From Paenibacillus sp. JDR-2 (GTDB lineage Bacteria; Bacillota; Bacilli; Paenibacillales; Paenibacillaceae): 64,000 nt of DNA. Position numbers and translations under genes: made by a program. This document shows, one piece after another, positions 123 to 9,047 of the stretch (its first letter is position 1; each line of letters opens with the position of its first letter). Below the pieces are notes generated by a model that saw only the letters and a program-made list of their open reading frames with translations, was not told the origin of the DNA and did no database searches. The DNA lies in assembly GCF_000023585.1 (NCBI RefSeq), contig NC_012914.1, positions 5,835,501 through 5,899,500 on the forward strand. Reading direction: 5' to 3'.

Positions 123-548
123 ATGATCAGCAGCCGTTTTACCGTAGCGGTTCATATCCTAGCGCTTGTTCATATCAATAACGGAAATGTTACTTCCGAA
201 TATATAGCTTCAAGCGTCAACACGAATCCCGCTGTTATCCGTAGAATTATGAGTATGTTAAGCAAAGCAGGTCTTATTTCTTCCCAGCCCGGAGTCATTG
301 GCATTAAGCTCCAGCATCCGATTGCCGACATCTCTTTGCTTGATGTTTATAAGGCCGTCGAATTGCCCGAAAAAAAGGAGCTGTTTACGCTCCATCAAAA
401 TACAAACGAGCATTGCGTAGTTGGCAAAGGGATTCAACAAGCATTAAGCGATCCGCTGCGCGATGCCCAGCAGCAAATGGAGCAGTCCCTTTCCCGGACC
501 ACGATTGAGCAGATTGTCAAGAAAATTTTGCGTCAGGAACATTTGTAA
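123..548 (+). CDS. Rrf2-family transcriptional regulator (YwnA-like)
   Basis: 141-residue winged-helix regulator. The N-terminal segment (SSRFTVAVHILALVHI, then NPAVIRRIMSMLSKAGLISS) is the Rrf2 helix-turn-helix and wing. Only one Cys is seen (EHCVVGKG), so the three-Cys iron-sulfur cluster of IscR/NsrR-type members is absent, as in the YwnA subgroup. The ATG at 123 is preferred to the in-frame ATG at 87 because homologues begin with MISSRF-like residues and a GAAAGGA site lies just upstream. In Bacillus, ywnA neighbours the NAD(P)-binding gene ywnB; a similar oxidoreductase lies at 1990-2748, which makes it a candidate target. The stop codon is inside the first half of a WalR-like box. Confidence 0.85.
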   Translation: MISSRFTVAVHILALVHINNGNVTSEYIASSVNTNPAVIRRIMSMLSKAGLISSQPGVIGIKLQHPIADISLLDVYKAVELPEKKELFTLHQNTNEHCVVGKGIQQALSDPLRDAQQQMEQSLSRTTIEQIVKKILRQEHL

Positions 549-598
549 TCTTCCTGTAATATTTCGCTCAGGTTCCTTTCATCATCGGCTCCTATAAT
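544..598 (+). promoter_or_regulatory. WalR-like box and promoter of the small transcript, copy 1
   Basis: TGTAAT-CTTCC-TGTAAT (544-560) fits the WalR/YycF consensus TGTWAH-N5-TGTWAH. TATAAT (593-598) follows 32 bp later. No good -35 hexamer is present at 17 bp, which suits an activator-dependent promoter. The first half of the box contains the Rrf2 stop codon (546-548). WalR control is inferred from the consensus only. Confidence 0.55.
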
Positions 599-604
599 AA
601 AGGA

Positions 605-667
605 CATGACCCCCCTTTATATATTCTCTATTGTTGCCTGCGGCTGATTGCCGCAGGCTTTTTGTTT
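605..667 (+). ncRNA. Candidate C-rich small RNA, copy 1
   Basis: A transcript starting about 7 nt after TATAAT would be about 63 nt long: an unpaired C6 tract followed by a U/A-rich stretch and a terminator. The stem is GCCTGCGGC (636-644), loop TGATT, GCCGCAGGC (650-658), then TTTTTGTTT. No ribosome site plus reading frame fits inside. C-rich unpaired tracts in Firmicute small RNAs are known to pair with Shine-Dalgarno sequences, and this one could do the same. The transcript is predicted, not observed. Confidence 0.55.
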
Positions 668-2923: not shown

Positions 2924-2959
2924 GGAGCATATTTCTTGTTCAGACAGGCGGTGAAATGT

Positions 2960-4435
2960 ATGCTTCCCAATTTACTTCATGATTTGAAAGAAAGCACGAA
3001 GTCGTCAGATCTGCTGCAATCGAGCATCATCATTAATAATAACCGCATCCATTTTACTTATTTCAGCACGCTTATCAATCAAGAAAAATTTCACCATGAT
3101 GTACTTTCCTTCATTCAATTTTCTTCAAAAAGCGATTTGGGCCGTCTGCAAGATCTTCAAGCGATGATTCCTCTTGAAGGGATGAAAATTACGGGAGATT
3201 TGAACGAGGTTTTGAAAAACGTGGTACGCGGTTCAATCTTTCTTCAATTGGATCCCCATTTACACGAAGGTCTAATCATTGATATTTCGGATCAAAAATC
3301 GGGGCATCGCGATCACAATGATACTGAGAATGAGTTTAGCGTCATTGGTCCAAAGGTCGGATTTGTCGAAAGCTTGGAAATCAACTTGACATTACTTCGA
3401 AGGGGACTCGTTACCGAGAAGCTAACCTTTGAGGAACTATCCATCGGAACGATGTCACAAACGACAATCGTCATTGCTTATTTAGACGGCATTACGAATC
3501 CGGAGTATATAAACACTGCCAGGCAAAGGATCTCGGATCTGGAATTCGACGTCGTGTTCGAAAGTTCTCTTTTGGAACAACTCATCACTGACAACTCCAA
3601 TTCTCCGTTTCCGTTATTTTTGTCCAGTGAGCGCCTGGATAGAATCATGTACTCTCTGTTGAACGGGGAAGTAGCCATTCTTTGCGATGGCTCCCCATTT
3701 GTACTCACGGGACCCACAAGCCTTTTTAGCTTTTTCGTTTCTCCCGAAGACTACTATTTACCTTGGATTCTGGGATCGTGCTTTCGTCTTATTCGTTATT
3801 TTGGAGTTGCGTTTTCGATTCTTGCTTCCTCCTTTTACGTAGCTATTCTTACGTTTCACTACATCGTCATTCCCCGGGAGCTTTTAGGACCAATTATCGA
3901 ATCGAGATCAAACGTGCCTTTCCCGCCCGTGTTGGAAGTGCTTTTCTTAGAAATGACCATTGAGTTGCTTCGTGAAGCCGGGTCAAGACTTCCTTCAAAG
4001 GTCAGCCAAACCTTGGGTATAGTTGGAGGCATTATACTTGGACAAGCTGCGGTGGCGGCCGGTTTAACCAGTAATATTTTGCTTATCATCGTATCGCTTT
4101 CGGCATTGGCTTCCTTTACCACGCCCATCTTCAAAATCTCGAACACGATTCGGTTTTTGCGTTTTCCGCTCATCCTTTTAGCATCATTATGGGGCGGATT
4201 CGGCATCATGATCGGGTTGATGTTTATATTAGGCCATTTATTACGTTTAAAATCGCTAGGCGCACCTTATATCGTGCCGATTTTCCCTTTTCGAAACAAT
4301 AGCTTCAGCGATAGCTTTATCCGCTCTTCTTTTACCCATTTGAATAATCGATTTTTTACGACTCGTCCGCTATCAACGAGAAGATATAACGTGAAAAAAA
4401 ATAAGGATATTGGCGACGACTACAATAACGAATGA
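2960..4435 (+). CDS. Spore germinant receptor A subunit (GerA/GerKA family)
   Basis: 491 residues, the usual length for the family. A soluble N-terminal region (about 1-270, with the FVESLEINLTLLRRGL and GTMSQTTIVIAYLDG blocks) precedes several membrane helices (about 270-460) with the conserved PPVLEVLFLEMTIELLREAG and LGIVGGIILGQAAVAAG motifs. It sits in the inner spore membrane as part of the A/B/C receptor that senses nutrients and starts germination. The start at 2960 is chosen because AGGCGGTG lies 8 bp upstream and the sigma-G start point falls after the alternative TTG (2936) ribosome site. First gene of an A-C-B operon, the order of gerK. The germinant cannot be read from sequence. 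Confidence 0.92.
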   Translation: MLPNLLHDLKESTKSSDLLQSSIIINNNRIHFTYFSTLINQEKFHHDVLSFIQFSSKSDLGRLQDLQAMIPLEGMKITGDLNEVLKNVVRGSIFLQLDPHLHEGLIIDISDQKSGHRDHNDTENEFSVIGPKVGFVESLEINLTLLRRGLVTEKLTFEELSIGTMSQTTIVIAYLDGITNPEYINTARQRISDLEFDVVFESSLLEQLITDNSNSPFPLFLSSERLDRIMYSLLNGEVAILCDGSPFVLTGPTSLFSFFVSPEDYYLPWILGSCFRLIRYFGVAFSILASSFYVAILTFHYIVIPRELLGPIIESRSNVPFPPVLEVLFLEMTIELLREAGSRLPSKVSQTLGIVGGIILGQAAVAAGLTSNILLIIVSLSALASFTTPIFKISNTIRFLRFPLILLASLWGGFGIMIGLMFILGHLLRLKSLGAPYIVPIFPFRNNSFSDSFIRSSFTHLNNRFFTTRPLSTRRYNVKKNKDIGDDYNNE

Positions 4436-4462
4436 TCAGAACGGATGGGAGAAATTGAAATC

Positions 4463-5518
4463 ATGAGAAGGCATGCGGTAGTCCTAATCTGCTGTTGCAT
4501 CTTGTTGTCGGGCTGCGCCCAAGAACGGGTCGTAGACCAAATCAATATTCTCCAGTACATGGGCGTAGACGTGGAAGAAGAGAAGTTTAAACTAAACGTT
4601 TCGTATCCGGAATATATCAAAGCTTCAGGGGGGCAATCCCTTGTAACTACGGAGTCTAATGTGGTCTATGGGGTTTTCACGGCCCTGACAGGCAAATCTT
4701 CTCAACCCGTTGAAATGGGACAAATGCGTACATTAGTCCTTAACGAAAAGTTTGCTAAGAAATACATATCCGAACTTGCCGATATTATCAATCGACAATT
4801 CACGAAAAGCACCAAAGCTTCTATTGTGTTAACGGACCAAAGCACAAAAACGATTATTACCGAAGCCTCCCAAAAACCTCCCTTCTTCTTGTCCGAGCTG
4901 ATCGATCAAAACATGGATCACGGAAATACGCCAAATACGAATTATCATACTTTCATTAATCAATATTATGGAGAGGGCCAAGACATTTACTTCCCGGTTA
5001 TCAATATGTATAAAGGCGTGTTTCAAATGGATGGCGTAGCCGTCTTTAAAGGAGACGATTTAAAACTTAGGTTAAATGTCAACGAAGGTTTGTATCTAAA
5101 ACTGCTTAAAGATAAAAAACGGACAGGCGAATACGATTTTATTGCCGGCACAAGTTCCATGTACTCCTTTGTTATTTTGAACGGCAAGTCCAAAATTGAC
5201 GTTAACGAAGACGGCAAAACAACGGTATCCCTTAAATTATCTATCCAACTTAGAGAAATCCCGGAACAAATGAACATACAGAACCAGGACGATTTAGATG
5301 AAATCAAGAAGCAAATTGAAGAGAAGTTATCCTCGGAAATTAAGTCGATGTTGATCCGTCTACAGCAAAACAAGGTCGATCCGATCGGCTTTGGAGAGAA
5401 ATACAGGAGGCAGCATCCAATATTCAAAGAGGATGAGTATTACGCAAAAATCTACCCTCATCTATCTTTTGAAGTCAAGACGAGCGTTAATATATTACAC
5501 GCGGGGGTTGGGCAATAA
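4463..5518 (+). CDS. Spore germination lipoprotein (Ger(x)C family)
   Basis: 351 residues. The signal peptide ends in the lipobox LLSGC, giving a lipid-anchored protein on the outer face of the inner spore membrane. The start motif DQINILQYMGVD and the C-terminal block PIGFGEKYRRQHP followed by VKTSVNI are typical of GerC proteins. The ATG at 4463 is chosen because it begins the signal peptide directly and GGGAG lies upstream; an in-frame ATG at 4445 adds six residues. It follows gerA by 27 bp and its stop overlaps the next start (TAATG), showing translational coupling within the receptor operon. Confidence 0.92.
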   Translation: MRRHAVVLICCCILLSGCAQERVVDQINILQYMGVDVEEEKFKLNVSYPEYIKASGGQSLVTTESNVVYGVFTALTGKSSQPVEMGQMRTLVLNEKFAKKYISELADIINRQFTKSTKASIVLTDQSTKTIITEASQKPPFFLSELIDQNMDHGNTPNTNYHTFINQYYGEGQDIYFPVINMYKGVFQMDGVAVFKGDDLKLRLNVNEGLYLKLLKDKKRTGEYDFIAGTSSMYSFVILNGKSKIDVNEDGKTTVSLKLSIQLREIPEQMNIQNQDDLDEIKKQIEEKLSSEIKSMLIRLQQNKVDPIGFGEKYRRQHPIFKEDEYYAKIYPHLSFEVKTSVNILHAGVGQ

Positions 5519-6612
5519 TGCAACAACGGATAAAGGAAAATTACGCGATTTCCGGATACTTTGTATTTTTCTTAATTGCTGTTACCCAAGCTGCCGCGAC
5601 TATATTTAATTTTCAGAACCTTGTGCTCGTGAATGCCGGCCAGGATGCTTGGATATCGATTATTTTGATAGGCGTGAGCCTTCATCTGATCATCTGGATG
5701 ATCTATAAATTGCTCGGCAATCCGGCCAAAGATGTTATTGACGTCCATCAATCGATTTTCGGTAAATACATGGGAAATGCTCTTTCTTTCATCGTTGTTG
5801 GTTACTATTTCTTAATGGCTCTATTCTTTCTCCGTTCTTACATGGAAGTTATTCAAGTATGGGTATTTCCTTCGCTTCGCACATGGGTTATTGCAGGTTT
5901 ATTTATCTGCATAATCTACTATGTTGTTTCCGGCGGGTTTAGGGTTGTTGCCGGGTTCAGCTTTTTTTATTTAGCGCTGATTCCCATGCTTTTCTGGTTG
6001 TTTTTTCCGGCCCGTCAAGGGGATCTCGGACTATTGCTGCCTGTTCTCAATCATTCTTTTCTAGATGTAATAAAAAGCTCAAAGTCATCCTGCATTATTT
6101 TCTTTGGGCTTGAACCTCTGCTTATCTATTTGCCTTTCTTGAAATCTGCCCAAAAGAATGCAAAGTGGGCCCATTTCGCTCTAATGTTTTCAACATTCAA
6201 ATATGCCGCAATCATGATTGTAACCCTGATGTTTTTCAGTCAAGGTCTTCTAAGACATACCTTATGGCCAACTATGGCTATGACGCAAATCATTGAGTTT
6301 TCCTTCATCGCAAGATTCGAATACGTCTTTATATTTATGTGGCAGTTGATTATTATTCCAACGGTTTGTATTCCCATTTGGTGCTGTACAAGAATTATGA
6401 AAAGAGTTTGTTCAGTAAAGCCCGGGCTATCTTTACCTTTTGTGTTGGCAGCGCTTTTGATCGCTGCGTTAACCTTGAAGGAACGGACACAAATTGACGC
6501 ATTTGGTACATTCATTAATAAATGCGCGATTTATTTCCATTTTGCTTATATTCCGTTGCTGTTTATTATCACTTGGATTGTAGCTCGCTTAAAGGTAAAG
6601 CATCTTGAATGA
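5518..6612 (+). CDS. Spore germination permease (GerB/GerAB family)
   Basis: 364 residues with about ten hydrophobic helices, a member of the APC-related endospore germination permeases. The N-terminus carries the recognisable IKENYAISGYFVFFLIAVTQ and the middle has GGFRVVAGFSFFYLALIPM. It forms the B subunit that binds the germinant in the inner spore membrane with the A and C subunits encoded just upstream. The ATG overlaps the preceding stop by one base. The operon ends here; the next feature is the second small-RNA cassette, 31 bp later. Confidence 0.92.
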   Translation: MQQRIKENYAISGYFVFFLIAVTQAAATIFNFQNLVLVNAGQDAWISIILIGVSLHLIIWMIYKLLGNPAKDVIDVHQSIFGKYMGNALSFIVVGYYFLMALFFLRSYMEVIQVWVFPSLRTWVIAGLFICIIYYVVSGGFRVVAGFSFFYLALIPMLFWLFFPARQGDLGLLLPVLNHSFLDVIKSSKSSCIIFFGLEPLLIYLPFLKSAQKNAKWAHFALMFSTFKYAAIMIVTLMFFSQGLLRHTLWPTMAMTQIIEFSFIARFEYVFIFMWQLIIIPTVCIPIWCCTRIMKRVCSVKPGLSLPFVLAALLIAALTLKERTQIDAFGTFINKCAIYFHFAYIPLLFIITWIVARLKVKHLE

Positions 6613-6643
6613 TGAATGAGCCAACCCGCTTCAACCATTCACT

Positions 6644-6698
6644 TGTAACCTTCCTGTAATATTCCGCTCAGGTTCCTTTCATTATCGGCTACTATAAT
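6644..6698 (+). promoter_or_regulatory. WalR-like box and promoter of the small transcript, copy 2
   Basis: TGTAAC-CTTCC-TGTAAT (6644-6660) and TATAAT (6693-6698) repeat the arrangement of copy 1 with the same 32-bp distance. Here the box is wholly intergenic, so its conservation is not a by-product of coding sequence. Confidence 0.55.
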
Positions 6699-6704
6699 AA
6701 GAGA

Positions 6705-6771
6705 CAAGACCCCCCTTTATTTATATATTCTCTATTGTTGCCTGCGGCTGATTGCCGCAGGCTTTTTGTTT
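6705..6771 (+). ncRNA. Candidate C-rich small RNA, copy 2
   Basis: Predicted transcript of about 67 nt from the base 7 nt after TATAAT to the T tract. It keeps the GACCCCCCTTTAT core and the terminator stem GCCTGCGGC (6740-6748) / GCCGCAGGC (6754-6762). It is four bases longer than copy 1 in the linker before the stem. Confidence 0.55.
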
Positions 6772-6775
6772 GCAC

Positions 6776-6811
6776 AGCAAAAGCCCCCGCAGGAATATTC
6801 CCGCGGGGGCT
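6776..6811 (-). terminator. Intrinsic terminator of the GH42 gene
   Basis: AGCCCCCGC (6782-6790) pairs with GCGGGGGCT (6803-6811), and on the minus strand a short T run follows. It lies directly after the beta-galactosidase stop codon. Confidence 0.75.
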
Positions 6812-6818
6812 CAATACA

Positions 6819-8864
6819 TTAAAGCTCCAAAACCATAACGCCGTATGCCGGCATCACTACCTCGTTTTCCAGTGCTGCTCCGGTCAGGAGGTCTGTTGCG
6901 CGCTGCTTCACTTGAACCGTTACCGGCTTATCCGAATAGTTCAACAGGAAAGCGTAAGAAGCATCCTTAGAAGCGCGAATACCGATCTCGACTTCGGCCG
7001 GGGCGGTGATCCGGTCCGCGAGAGGCGAGCTTAAACCAATCTCATCCAAAATCCCGTCAACTACCGGTTCGCTGTAGGCAGCTCCTAAGTACCAGACTTG
7101 GCCTTCTCCAACGTTCCTGCGGATTAAAGCCGGCTCCCCTTGATAATATTCGGAGGAGTACCGGGCGACAACTTCCGCTTCCGGATTCTGAACGCTAAGC
7201 ACCTCGTTGAAGCCTGCCGCCTTTGTACCTTCGGACAATCGGCCTTCCCATTGCAGCTCCGCCGCATTCACTTTTCCTTTGATTAGAGTAAAGTCCTCAA
7301 CCGTAATGCCGCATAGTCCGGCTACCGGACCCGGGAATGGACGCATGTAGCATTGTCCGTTCATATCCTTGTACCCCGTGCGGGCACCCAGGAACAACTT
7401 GCCGCCCTGCTCCACATAGCGGGTCAGAAGCTCGGCCGTCTCATCGGTCATAATCGCCGAATGCGGGTAGACAACTACTTTGTACTTGGCTAACTCCTCG
7501 AGAGTCGTATTCGAACGCAAGAAAATGGAGTCTGCCGGAACATGACGGTATTGCAGCTGCTTGAACCAGGAGCGCATGCTCTGCCACTGAAGAGGGCCAT
7601 GCCATACATCCATCTCCGCATCCCAGTTATTGCTGTAATCCTGCATATAAGCAACTTCCGCTTGATAAGCCGTCCCTGCGATCAGAGAACCGATCTTGGC
7701 GAACTCACCTCCTACCTGCGCTACTTCCCGAACTCTCCGGTTCGGCTGATTGTGGTAGTCGTTAATGCCGTGCCAATAAATTTCGGTGCCGAAGGTTGCC
7801 GTGCGCCAGCGGAAATAGACTAGCAAATCGGTTCCATGCAGCACCGATTGATACGACCATAAACGGATTTGACCCGGTCTTGGCGTTCCCATCTCAATCC
7901 GGTCGACCCAGCCGCCGGGGCCGGACTGCTGCTCCATGACGCAGAAGTTCGGCGAAATGGACCTTACATTGGTCAAATTAATGCTCCATTGGCGGTCAAG
8001 CAGAGGATCGGTTTCATTGTCGTTATAGAAAACGCTGCTGAACTGCGGATACGAATCATACGAGAAGAAATCGAGCAGCTCATCCGTCATCTTATGATTG
8101 TCCAGATGGCCGAACAAGCCGTTCGTCGTTACCCAATGCTGCGGCGCCAGCTCGCGGATAATATCCGCCTGCAGCTTGGCGAACGAAATGACGTTATCCG
8201 AAATAAACCGTTTCTCGTCCAATGCCAGATGCGGGTTCGGCGAATCCGTCTGCGACAGGTGCAGCTGCTCCCAATCCGTATAAGTCTGGCTCCAGAATAC
8301 CGTACCCCAAGCTTTATTGAGTTTCTCCAACGTCTCGTACTTTTCTTTGAGCCATACCCGGAATGCGGCATGGTCGGCTTCGGCATAAAACACGTTTTTC
8401 TCGCAGTTAAATTCGTTATCGATCTGCCACCCTATAACCGAAGGATGGTCCTTGTAAGCGTTCACCATATTGCGCACGATTCGCTGGGAAAGCTCCCTGT
8501 ATTTCGCGCTGGAATAATTGTAATGGCGGCGCATGCCATGCTTAATCAGCAGGCCTTCCTTCGTTGCATTCAGCACCTCTGGATATTTATGCGTCAGCCA
8601 AGCCGGCGGCGTTGCGGTAGGCGTACCCAGAATAACTCTCAGACCGTAACGATGCGCCAGGTCCATCACCCGCGTGAAAAAGGTAAAATCAAATACGCCT
8701 TCCTGCGGCTCGAGCATCGCCCAAGAAAATTCCGCCATCCGAATCACCGAGATATTCATCTCCCGCATGCGGCGGAAATCGTCTTCCCACAGCCCCTCCG
8801 GCCAATGCTCCGGATAATAACATACTCCTAATGTTAACTCGTCCATTTGAATCGACTTTGCCAT
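6819..8864 (-). CDS. GH42 beta-galactosidase
   Basis: 681 residues, a usual GH42 length, without a signal peptide, so cytoplasmic. It hydrolyses terminal beta-galactosides such as pectic galactan or arabinogalacto-oligosaccharides. The opening LGVCYYPEHWPEGLWEDD is diagnostic. The acid/base Glu is about E151 in QIDNEF and the nucleophile about E311 in CVMEQQSGPGGW. The trimerisation and small C-terminal beta domains follow. The start at 8864 is chosen for AAGGAGG just upstream; the frame upstream is open but unrelated to the family. Divergent from the AraC gene at 9048, its likely activator. Confidence 0.92.
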   Translation of the reverse strand: MAKSIQMDELTLGVCYYPEHWPEGLWEDDFRRMREMNISVIRMAEFSWAMLEPQEGVFDFTFFTRVMDLAHRYGLRVILGTPTATPPAWLTHKYPEVLNATKEGLLIKHGMRRHYNYSSAKYRELSQRIVRNMVNAYKDHPSVIGWQIDNEFNCEKNVFYAEADHAAFRVWLKEKYETLEKLNKAWGTVFWSQTYTDWEQLHLSQTDSPNPHLALDEKRFISDNVISFAKLQADIIRELAPQHWVTTNGLFGHLDNHKMTDELLDFFSYDSYPQFSSVFYNDNETDPLLDRQWSINLTNVRSISPNFCVMEQQSGPGGWVDRIEMGTPRPGQIRLWSYQSVLHGTDLLVYFRWRTATFGTEIYWHGINDYHNQPNRRVREVAQVGGEFAKIGSLIAGTAYQAEVAYMQDYSNNWDAEMDVWHGPLQWQSMRSWFKQLQYRHVPADSIFLRSNTTLEELAKYKVVVYPHSAIMTDETAELLTRYVEQGGKLFLGARTGYKDMNGQCYMRPFPGPVAGLCGITVEDFTLIKGKVNAAELQWEGRLSEGTKAAGFNEVLSVQNPEAEVVARYSSEYYQGEPALIRRNVGEGQVWYLGAAYSEPVVDGILDEIGLSSPLADRITAPAEVEIGIRASKDASYAFLLNYSDKPVTVQVKQRATDLLTGAALENEVVMPAYGVMVLEL

Positions 8865-9047
8865 TGCGACATCCTCCTTAGCGCATCTTGCTTCTACCTC
8901 CATTCTAGTGGACACCCGGGCAGAAGGATATGACAAAAAGATGCGAACTGTATTAAAATATTGTCATCAATCAACCCATTAGTTGCTGTATTATCTTCTA
9001 CATGAAGATATCGTATAAAAATATTGCGTTGTTAAGAGGAGTTTCCA

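Follow-up and report, generated by a model that had tools for sequence, protein, structure and literature searches.

A multicopy family of putative C-tract small-RNA genes behind response-regulator-type promoters in the Paenibacillaceae

A short block, composed of a promoter, a tract of six C and a terminator, occurs twice in the window, by which we mean the whole stretch of 64,000 nucleotides of a Paenibacillus genome that was analysed. Judged from its sequence and the way it varies between copies, the block is not a product of chance but a genuine small-RNA gene under strong conservation. We consider it likely that the blocks form a multicopy, response-regulator-driven family of anti-Shine-Dalgarno small RNAs, in which each block is an independent gene of about 60 nt. 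By analogy with regulators of this kind, the small RNA probably blocks ribosome binding sites, and it may do so in trans. The RNA gene is present in nearly all the Paenibacillaceae genomes searched; RsaE/RoxS, a well-known small RNA, was found in none of the 80 genomes of this family that were searched for it.

All the parts of copy 1 lie on the plus strand. Its four regulator boxes are found at 544-549 (TGTAAT), 555-560 (TGTAAT, 11 bp past the first), 566-571 (GCTCAG, in the same 11-bp register) and 577-582 (TTTCAT), and the -10 hexamer TATAAT is read in the sequence at 593-598. The predicted small RNA, of about 60-63 nt, would begin at about 605, some 7 nt past the -10 hexamer, and would end at about 663-667. 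It carries the C6 tract, the predicted anti-Shine-Dalgarno seed GACCCCCCUUUA, at 610-615; a conserved A/U-rich linker, UUUAUAUAUUCUCUAUUGUU, at 616-635; and an intrinsic terminator at 636-667, which consists of a 9-bp G+C stem (636-644 with 650-658), a 5-nt loop and the T tract TTTTTGTTT at 659-667. In the predicted fold of this RNA (-21.0 kcal/mol, z=-5.7), the C tract is unpaired and the terminator is the only paired part. A previous reading of the sequence alone (the sequence-only reading) had pointed out the close grouping of a TATAAT, a run of six C and a strong terminator, and all three are indeed contained within 593-667. The same reading took the cassette to be free-standing. No open reading frame is conserved on either strand, but the promoter of copy 1 is not fully free-standing, because the Rrf2-type gene upstream has its stop codon (546-548) inside box 1.

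The repetition of the block at 6641-6771, also indicated by that reading, was confirmed by a nucleotide search of the genome, in which copies 1 and 2 are 91% identical across approximately 125 bp (E=8e-47). Copy 2, on the plus strand as well, has its boxes at 6644 (TGTAAC), 6655 (TGTAAT), 6666 (GCTCAG) and 6677 (TTTCAT), that is, with an 11-bp period over 6644-6682, followed by a TATAAT read in the sequence at 6693-6698. Its predicted small RNA spans 6705-6771, with the C6 tract at 6710-6715, the terminator stem at 6740-6762 and the T tract at 6763-6771. A second hairpin, AGCCCCCGCAGGAATATTCCCGCGGGGGCT, lies directly 3' of copy 2 at 6783-6811; it probably belongs to the GH42 beta-galactosidase gene that converges on it (6819-8936, minus strand). 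A three-gene spore-germination operon (GerK A/C/B-like, 2936-6612) takes up a large part of the interval from copy 1 to copy 2.

The blocks could be mere terminators of their upstream genes, with a fortuitous TATAAT: copy 1 begins at the stop codon that ends the Rrf2-type gene, and 31 bp separate copy 2 from the last stop codon of the GerK-like operon, so that read-through from these genes would end at the blocks. We regard this explanation as extremely unlikely, since the conserved region continues for 60-90 bp on the upstream side of the stem, with its maximum in the boxes and the C tract, and the upstream genes vary between copies and genomes.

The response-regulator promoter is the most informative feature of the element. 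The four boxes upstream of the -10 hexamer, together with a third close copy 7 kb outside the window, are additions to what the sequence-only reading had described. The boxes are direct repeats with an exact 11-bp spacing, TGTAAT-N5-TGTAAT-N5-NCTCAG-N5-TTTCAT, the last of which ends 10 bp before TATAAT. A sigma-70 promoter with a -35 hexamer was considered and discarded: no such hexamer stands upstream of TATAAT at 16-18 bp, and no promoter pair was called. To judge by its sequence, the box layout looks like that of promoters activated by response regulators of the OmpR family, which suggests two-component control. The consensus reported for WalR/YycF, TGT(A/T)A(A/T/C)-N5-TGT(A/T)A(A/T/C) (PMC5405149), is satisfied exactly by boxes 1 and 2, and TGTAA-N6-TGTAA is found in all 45 copies that we aligned; the difference from a WalR binding site is that here four boxes stand in series directly upstream of the -10 hexamer. 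WalR would be the best fit to the boxes and the leading candidate, with PhoP or ResD as alternatives from which the box letters alone cannot tell it apart. The pstS promoter of the same genome (L129) was compared with respect to PhoP: its PhoP-type boxes, TTTACA-N5-TTAACA plus further 11-bp repeats before TACAAT, lie at nearly the same distance to the -10 hexamer as those of the small-RNA genes, but with other letters on the coding strand. The literature searched contained no small RNA driven by WalR; if WalR is the regulator, a small RNA would have to be added to a central cell-wall control system of these bacteria. With a promoter of this architecture, the question of the regulator is open to direct tests.

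The genome (7.18 Mb, single contig) contains eight TGTAAY-N5-TGTAAY sites, and four of them sit at small-RNA genes. No clear common function is apparent for the other four (L112, L113, L114 and L119); one of these precedes an IclR-type regulator gene and one adjoins a polyphosphate-kinase-2-like gene.

A nucleotide search of this genome with copy 1 returned three close copies (E=7e-68, 8e-47 and 4e-18), the third being located at genome positions 5906716-5906842 with 76% identity. A covariance model, R1, which comprises promoter and RNA and was built from the alignment of 45 copies, matched three more distant paralogues at 6183642, 5040681 and 5525582 (L089:1501-1629, L090:1501-1627 and L091:1501-1623, respectively). 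These retain the boxes, TATAAT or a variant of it, a C5 or C6 tract, the U-run and the terminator, and each has a box set of its own. The seventh and weakest match in the genome (2391334-2391460, 46 bits) was rejected as a member, as it has neither the C tract nor the TGTAA boxes. Near the paralogue at 5040681 (c5), a T-box-like leader is found upstream of hisS (L090:1178-1416, minus strand), with 84.6 bits against a gathering score of 93.

Within the genus, BLAST with copy 1 detects copies in 34 of 51 genomes, and R1 matches all 51. Across the Paenibacillaceae, R1 matches 394 of 396 genomes and all 19 genera, with one to eight matches per genome and usually several. The copy-1 form is also carried by P. 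glycanilyticus and Paenibacillus sp. BK033, which are among the named species whose core matches exactly. The proposal of the sequence-only reading that the cassette represents a family of C-rich small-RNA genes is borne out by the further copies in the genome and by these family-wide matches; the search of this genome and of other Paenibacillus genomes yielded more copies, and their stem covaries.

Copies 1 and 2 are the product of a later, recent duplication in a subclade. This duplication, the differing contexts of the copies and the broken copies in one relative (G017; L048 and L050), in which the terminator end is left while the -10 hexamer and the C tract are gone, would suit a dispersed repeat (MITE or REP-like, or a relic) that carries a terminator and was spread by mobility without being a functional gene. 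This origin is nevertheless very unlikely. The copy number is low, and the searches returned no plasmid or phage matches to the element. In many genomes, other genera included, the c3-type locus has constant neighbours, namely an aldolase gene and, in a subset, mutY, and conservation is concentrated in the boxes, the C tract and the linker even at family-wide distances.

The pattern of conservation among the 45 copies tells which parts of the gene are under constraint. By column count, GACCCCCC is identical in every copy; one copy has seven C, and one lacks a neighbouring U. The TGTAA of boxes 1 and 2, the C, T and A of box 3 and the TTCAT of box 4 are likewise invariant, and the second C of box 3 is kept in 44 copies. 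Mean identity amounts to 90% in the linker UUUAUUAUAUAUUCUCUCUUG, 95% in the stem and 63% in the loop. Four pairs of the stem are changed on both sides, a number reached by none of 500 shuffles. Conservation confined to the terminator stem, the outcome that would have spoken against the sequence-only reading, was not what we observed, because the C tract is invariant, conservation of the linker is about 90% and compensatory changes have occurred in the stem. The anti-AUG (CAU) beside the seed is not kept in all copies.

No open reading frame is conserved on either strand of the 45 copies. On the forward strand, the ATG is missing in 7 copies, and the length of the frame varies between 4 codons and 24 or more. 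One could also read the reverse strand as coding for a short peptide, with AAAGGGGGGTC-ATG as ribosome site and start and the C tract as nothing but its antisense. This frame begins after GGGGGGTC, and it stays open for 22 or more codons (MSFIIGADDERNLSEILQEDYK...) in the two copies of the window and in those most closely related to them. Across the alignment, however, its start is lost in 6 of the 45 copies and a stop follows after 2, 4, 7 or 12 codons in 26, and the variation is without strong codon periodicity. The terminator T run, moreover, exists on the plus strand only, and the promoter boxes and TATAAT face that strand. A reverse-strand peptide is thus exceedingly improbable, and coding on either strand was rejected because neither the frames nor the starts are conserved.

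For the small-RNA gene, we envisage the following mode of action. A phosphorylated response regulator of the OmpR family would bind the boxes and activate transcription; the GACCCCCCUUUA at the 5' end of the RNA would then pair with G-rich Shine-Dalgarno sequences in a group of mRNAs, whose translation could then not be initiated. The presence of several copies may add dose and allow separate tuning. The unpaired 5' ACAUGACCCCCCUUUA is the complement of the G-rich Shine-Dalgarno sequence, and we take it to resemble the anti-Shine-Dalgarno 3' tail of the 16S rRNA. By analogy with RoxS, the csRNAs and LhrC, blocking of the ribosome site is probably its most likely action.

We scanned approximately 995 gene starts from about 1.2 Mb for possible targets with a 16-nt seed. 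A run of four or more G between -25 and -4 is present in 18% of these starts. The median energy of the seed duplex is -8.6 at the starts, compared with -5.3 at 150 nt inside genes and -4.5 at 55-90 nt upstream. The duplex energies at the approximately 995 starts are no better than those obtained with shuffled C-rich sequences, so that no specific set of mRNAs is predicted; because shuffled C-rich seeds behave likewise, the preference of the seed for starts follows from composition alone. Before a start-like codon, the full complement AAAGGGGGGT is found only opposite the three small-RNA genes and nowhere else in the genome, which means that any target must pair by a shorter or imperfect match.

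The lack of a specific target set in the duplex prediction would fit a decoy or sponge, which has no specific mRNA targets and uses its C tract and its UAUAUUCUCU linker to titrate an RNA-binding protein or another small RNA. The A/U-rich linker, whose conservation of about 90% exceeds what a seed alone would need, and the several copies, with tandem arrays of two or three in other Paenibacillaceae genera (L104:1588-1868, L105:1527-1849 and L106:1567-2084), would suit such a dose-driven action. On the other hand, the invariant part is the C tract at the 5' end, a motif of the kind carried by known small RNAs that bind Shine-Dalgarno sequences (RoxS, csRNA, LhrC), and we judge a sponge to be rather unlikely and keep the blocking of ribosome sites as the preferred reading.

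The signature extends beyond the Paenibacillaceae. The pattern TGTAAY-N5-TGTAAY-N22..52-CCCCCTTW is found in 108 of 399 Bacilli genomes, and a reversed control pattern gave one match. Outside the Paenibacillaceae, boxes with CCCCCTT occur in 79 of 361 other Bacilli genomes (counted from the table of matches), while the box-plus-C-tract pattern is absent from all 288 non-Bacilli Bacillota genomes. At the loci from other families that we read, there are two to four boxes of the TGTAAY type, which mostly end 10 bp upstream of a TANNNT, and often ...CGATGAAAACCCCCTTA; after the C tract come an A/T linker and then a hairpin with a T run. None of 17 loci from other Bacilli has an Rfam match. The RNAs of other Bacilli have the box spacing, the position of the C tract and the terminator in common with the Paenibacillaceae RNA and little else, and on their sequences they may be either homologous or convergent. 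We put forward only tentatively, as a possibility that we hold to be less probable than its opposite, that the Bacilli as a whole possess a class of C-tract small RNAs under two-component control (TGTAAY boxes, C5-6 and terminator) which has not been described before. These RNAs, often several per genome, would couple an envelope-sensing regulator such as WalR to the translation of numerous mRNAs whose ribosome sites contain a G run, and would fill the place of RsaE/RoxS in the Paenibacillaceae. Independently of this, the box-plus-C-tract signature provides a simple search rule that recovers candidate small RNAs in many other families of Bacilli.

With regard to known small RNAs, no Rfam 15 family exceeds its gathering threshold in the window, and known families were set aside since they gave only weak E-value matches, located outside the cassette or due to chance. 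No description of the element was found in the literature searched. A dRNA-seq study of P. riograndensis SBR5 gives 27 small RNAs, most of them without known function (PMC5670726).

RsaE/RoxS has C-rich unpaired tracts that are thought to pair with Shine-Dalgarno sequences and is controlled by the response regulator ResD/SrrA (PMC4409812). The present RNA shares with it (RF01820) an unpaired C-rich region able to pair with Shine-Dalgarno sequences, here GACCCCCC, but has one C tract instead of several C-rich regions (CRR1-4). Membership in this family was rejected: the RF01820 model has no match in the window or in the cassettes and matches none of 80 Paenibacillaceae genomes, including the present one, whereas the B. 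subtilis control was positive.

LhrC1-5 of Listeria are multicopy, LisR-dependent RNAs whose CU-rich motifs bind the target mRNA and impede translation (PMC4132741). Multiple copies, a dependence on a response regulator (putative here) and a C-rich or CU-rich motif would be common to both. The CU-rich motif of LhrC, however, is present three times with redundant function, once each in a stem-loop, in a single-stranded stretch and in the terminator, compared with one C6 tract and one hairpin here; its three UCCC/CU-rich motifs were not found, and the linker UAUAUUCUCU is without UCCC.

The csRNAs of streptococci, which depend on CiaR, are intergenic RNAs of 51-202 nt, with 2-6 related copies per genome and an anti-Shine-Dalgarno sequence in an unpaired region, and in their CiaR promoters an OmpR-family direct repeat ends 10 bp before the -10 hexamer (PMC3091779). 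The present element resembles them in its several copies, in direct repeats that stop 10 bp short of the -10 hexamer, in the intrinsic terminator and in the unpaired anti-Shine-Dalgarno sequence; the layout of copy 1 is the same, with box 4 ending at 582, the -10 hexamer starting at 593 and the terminator at 636-667. It differs in having four TGTAAY-type boxes instead of TTTAAG-N5-TTTAAG, the CiaR box NTTAAG-N5-TTTAAG being absent from the 45 copies, whose boxes are TGTAAY/CTCAG/TTTCAT. Further differences are a single stem, the terminator, as opposed to two in the csRNAs, the invariant C6 at the 5' end, an anti-AUG that is not in every copy, and another host group. By these analogies, the kind of regulator is probably a known one and the family a new one, which would be like the csRNAs, LhrC and RsaE/RoxS in its action but is a member of none of them, and which stands out by its unusually tight promoter signature and its near-universal distribution in the Paenibacillaceae.
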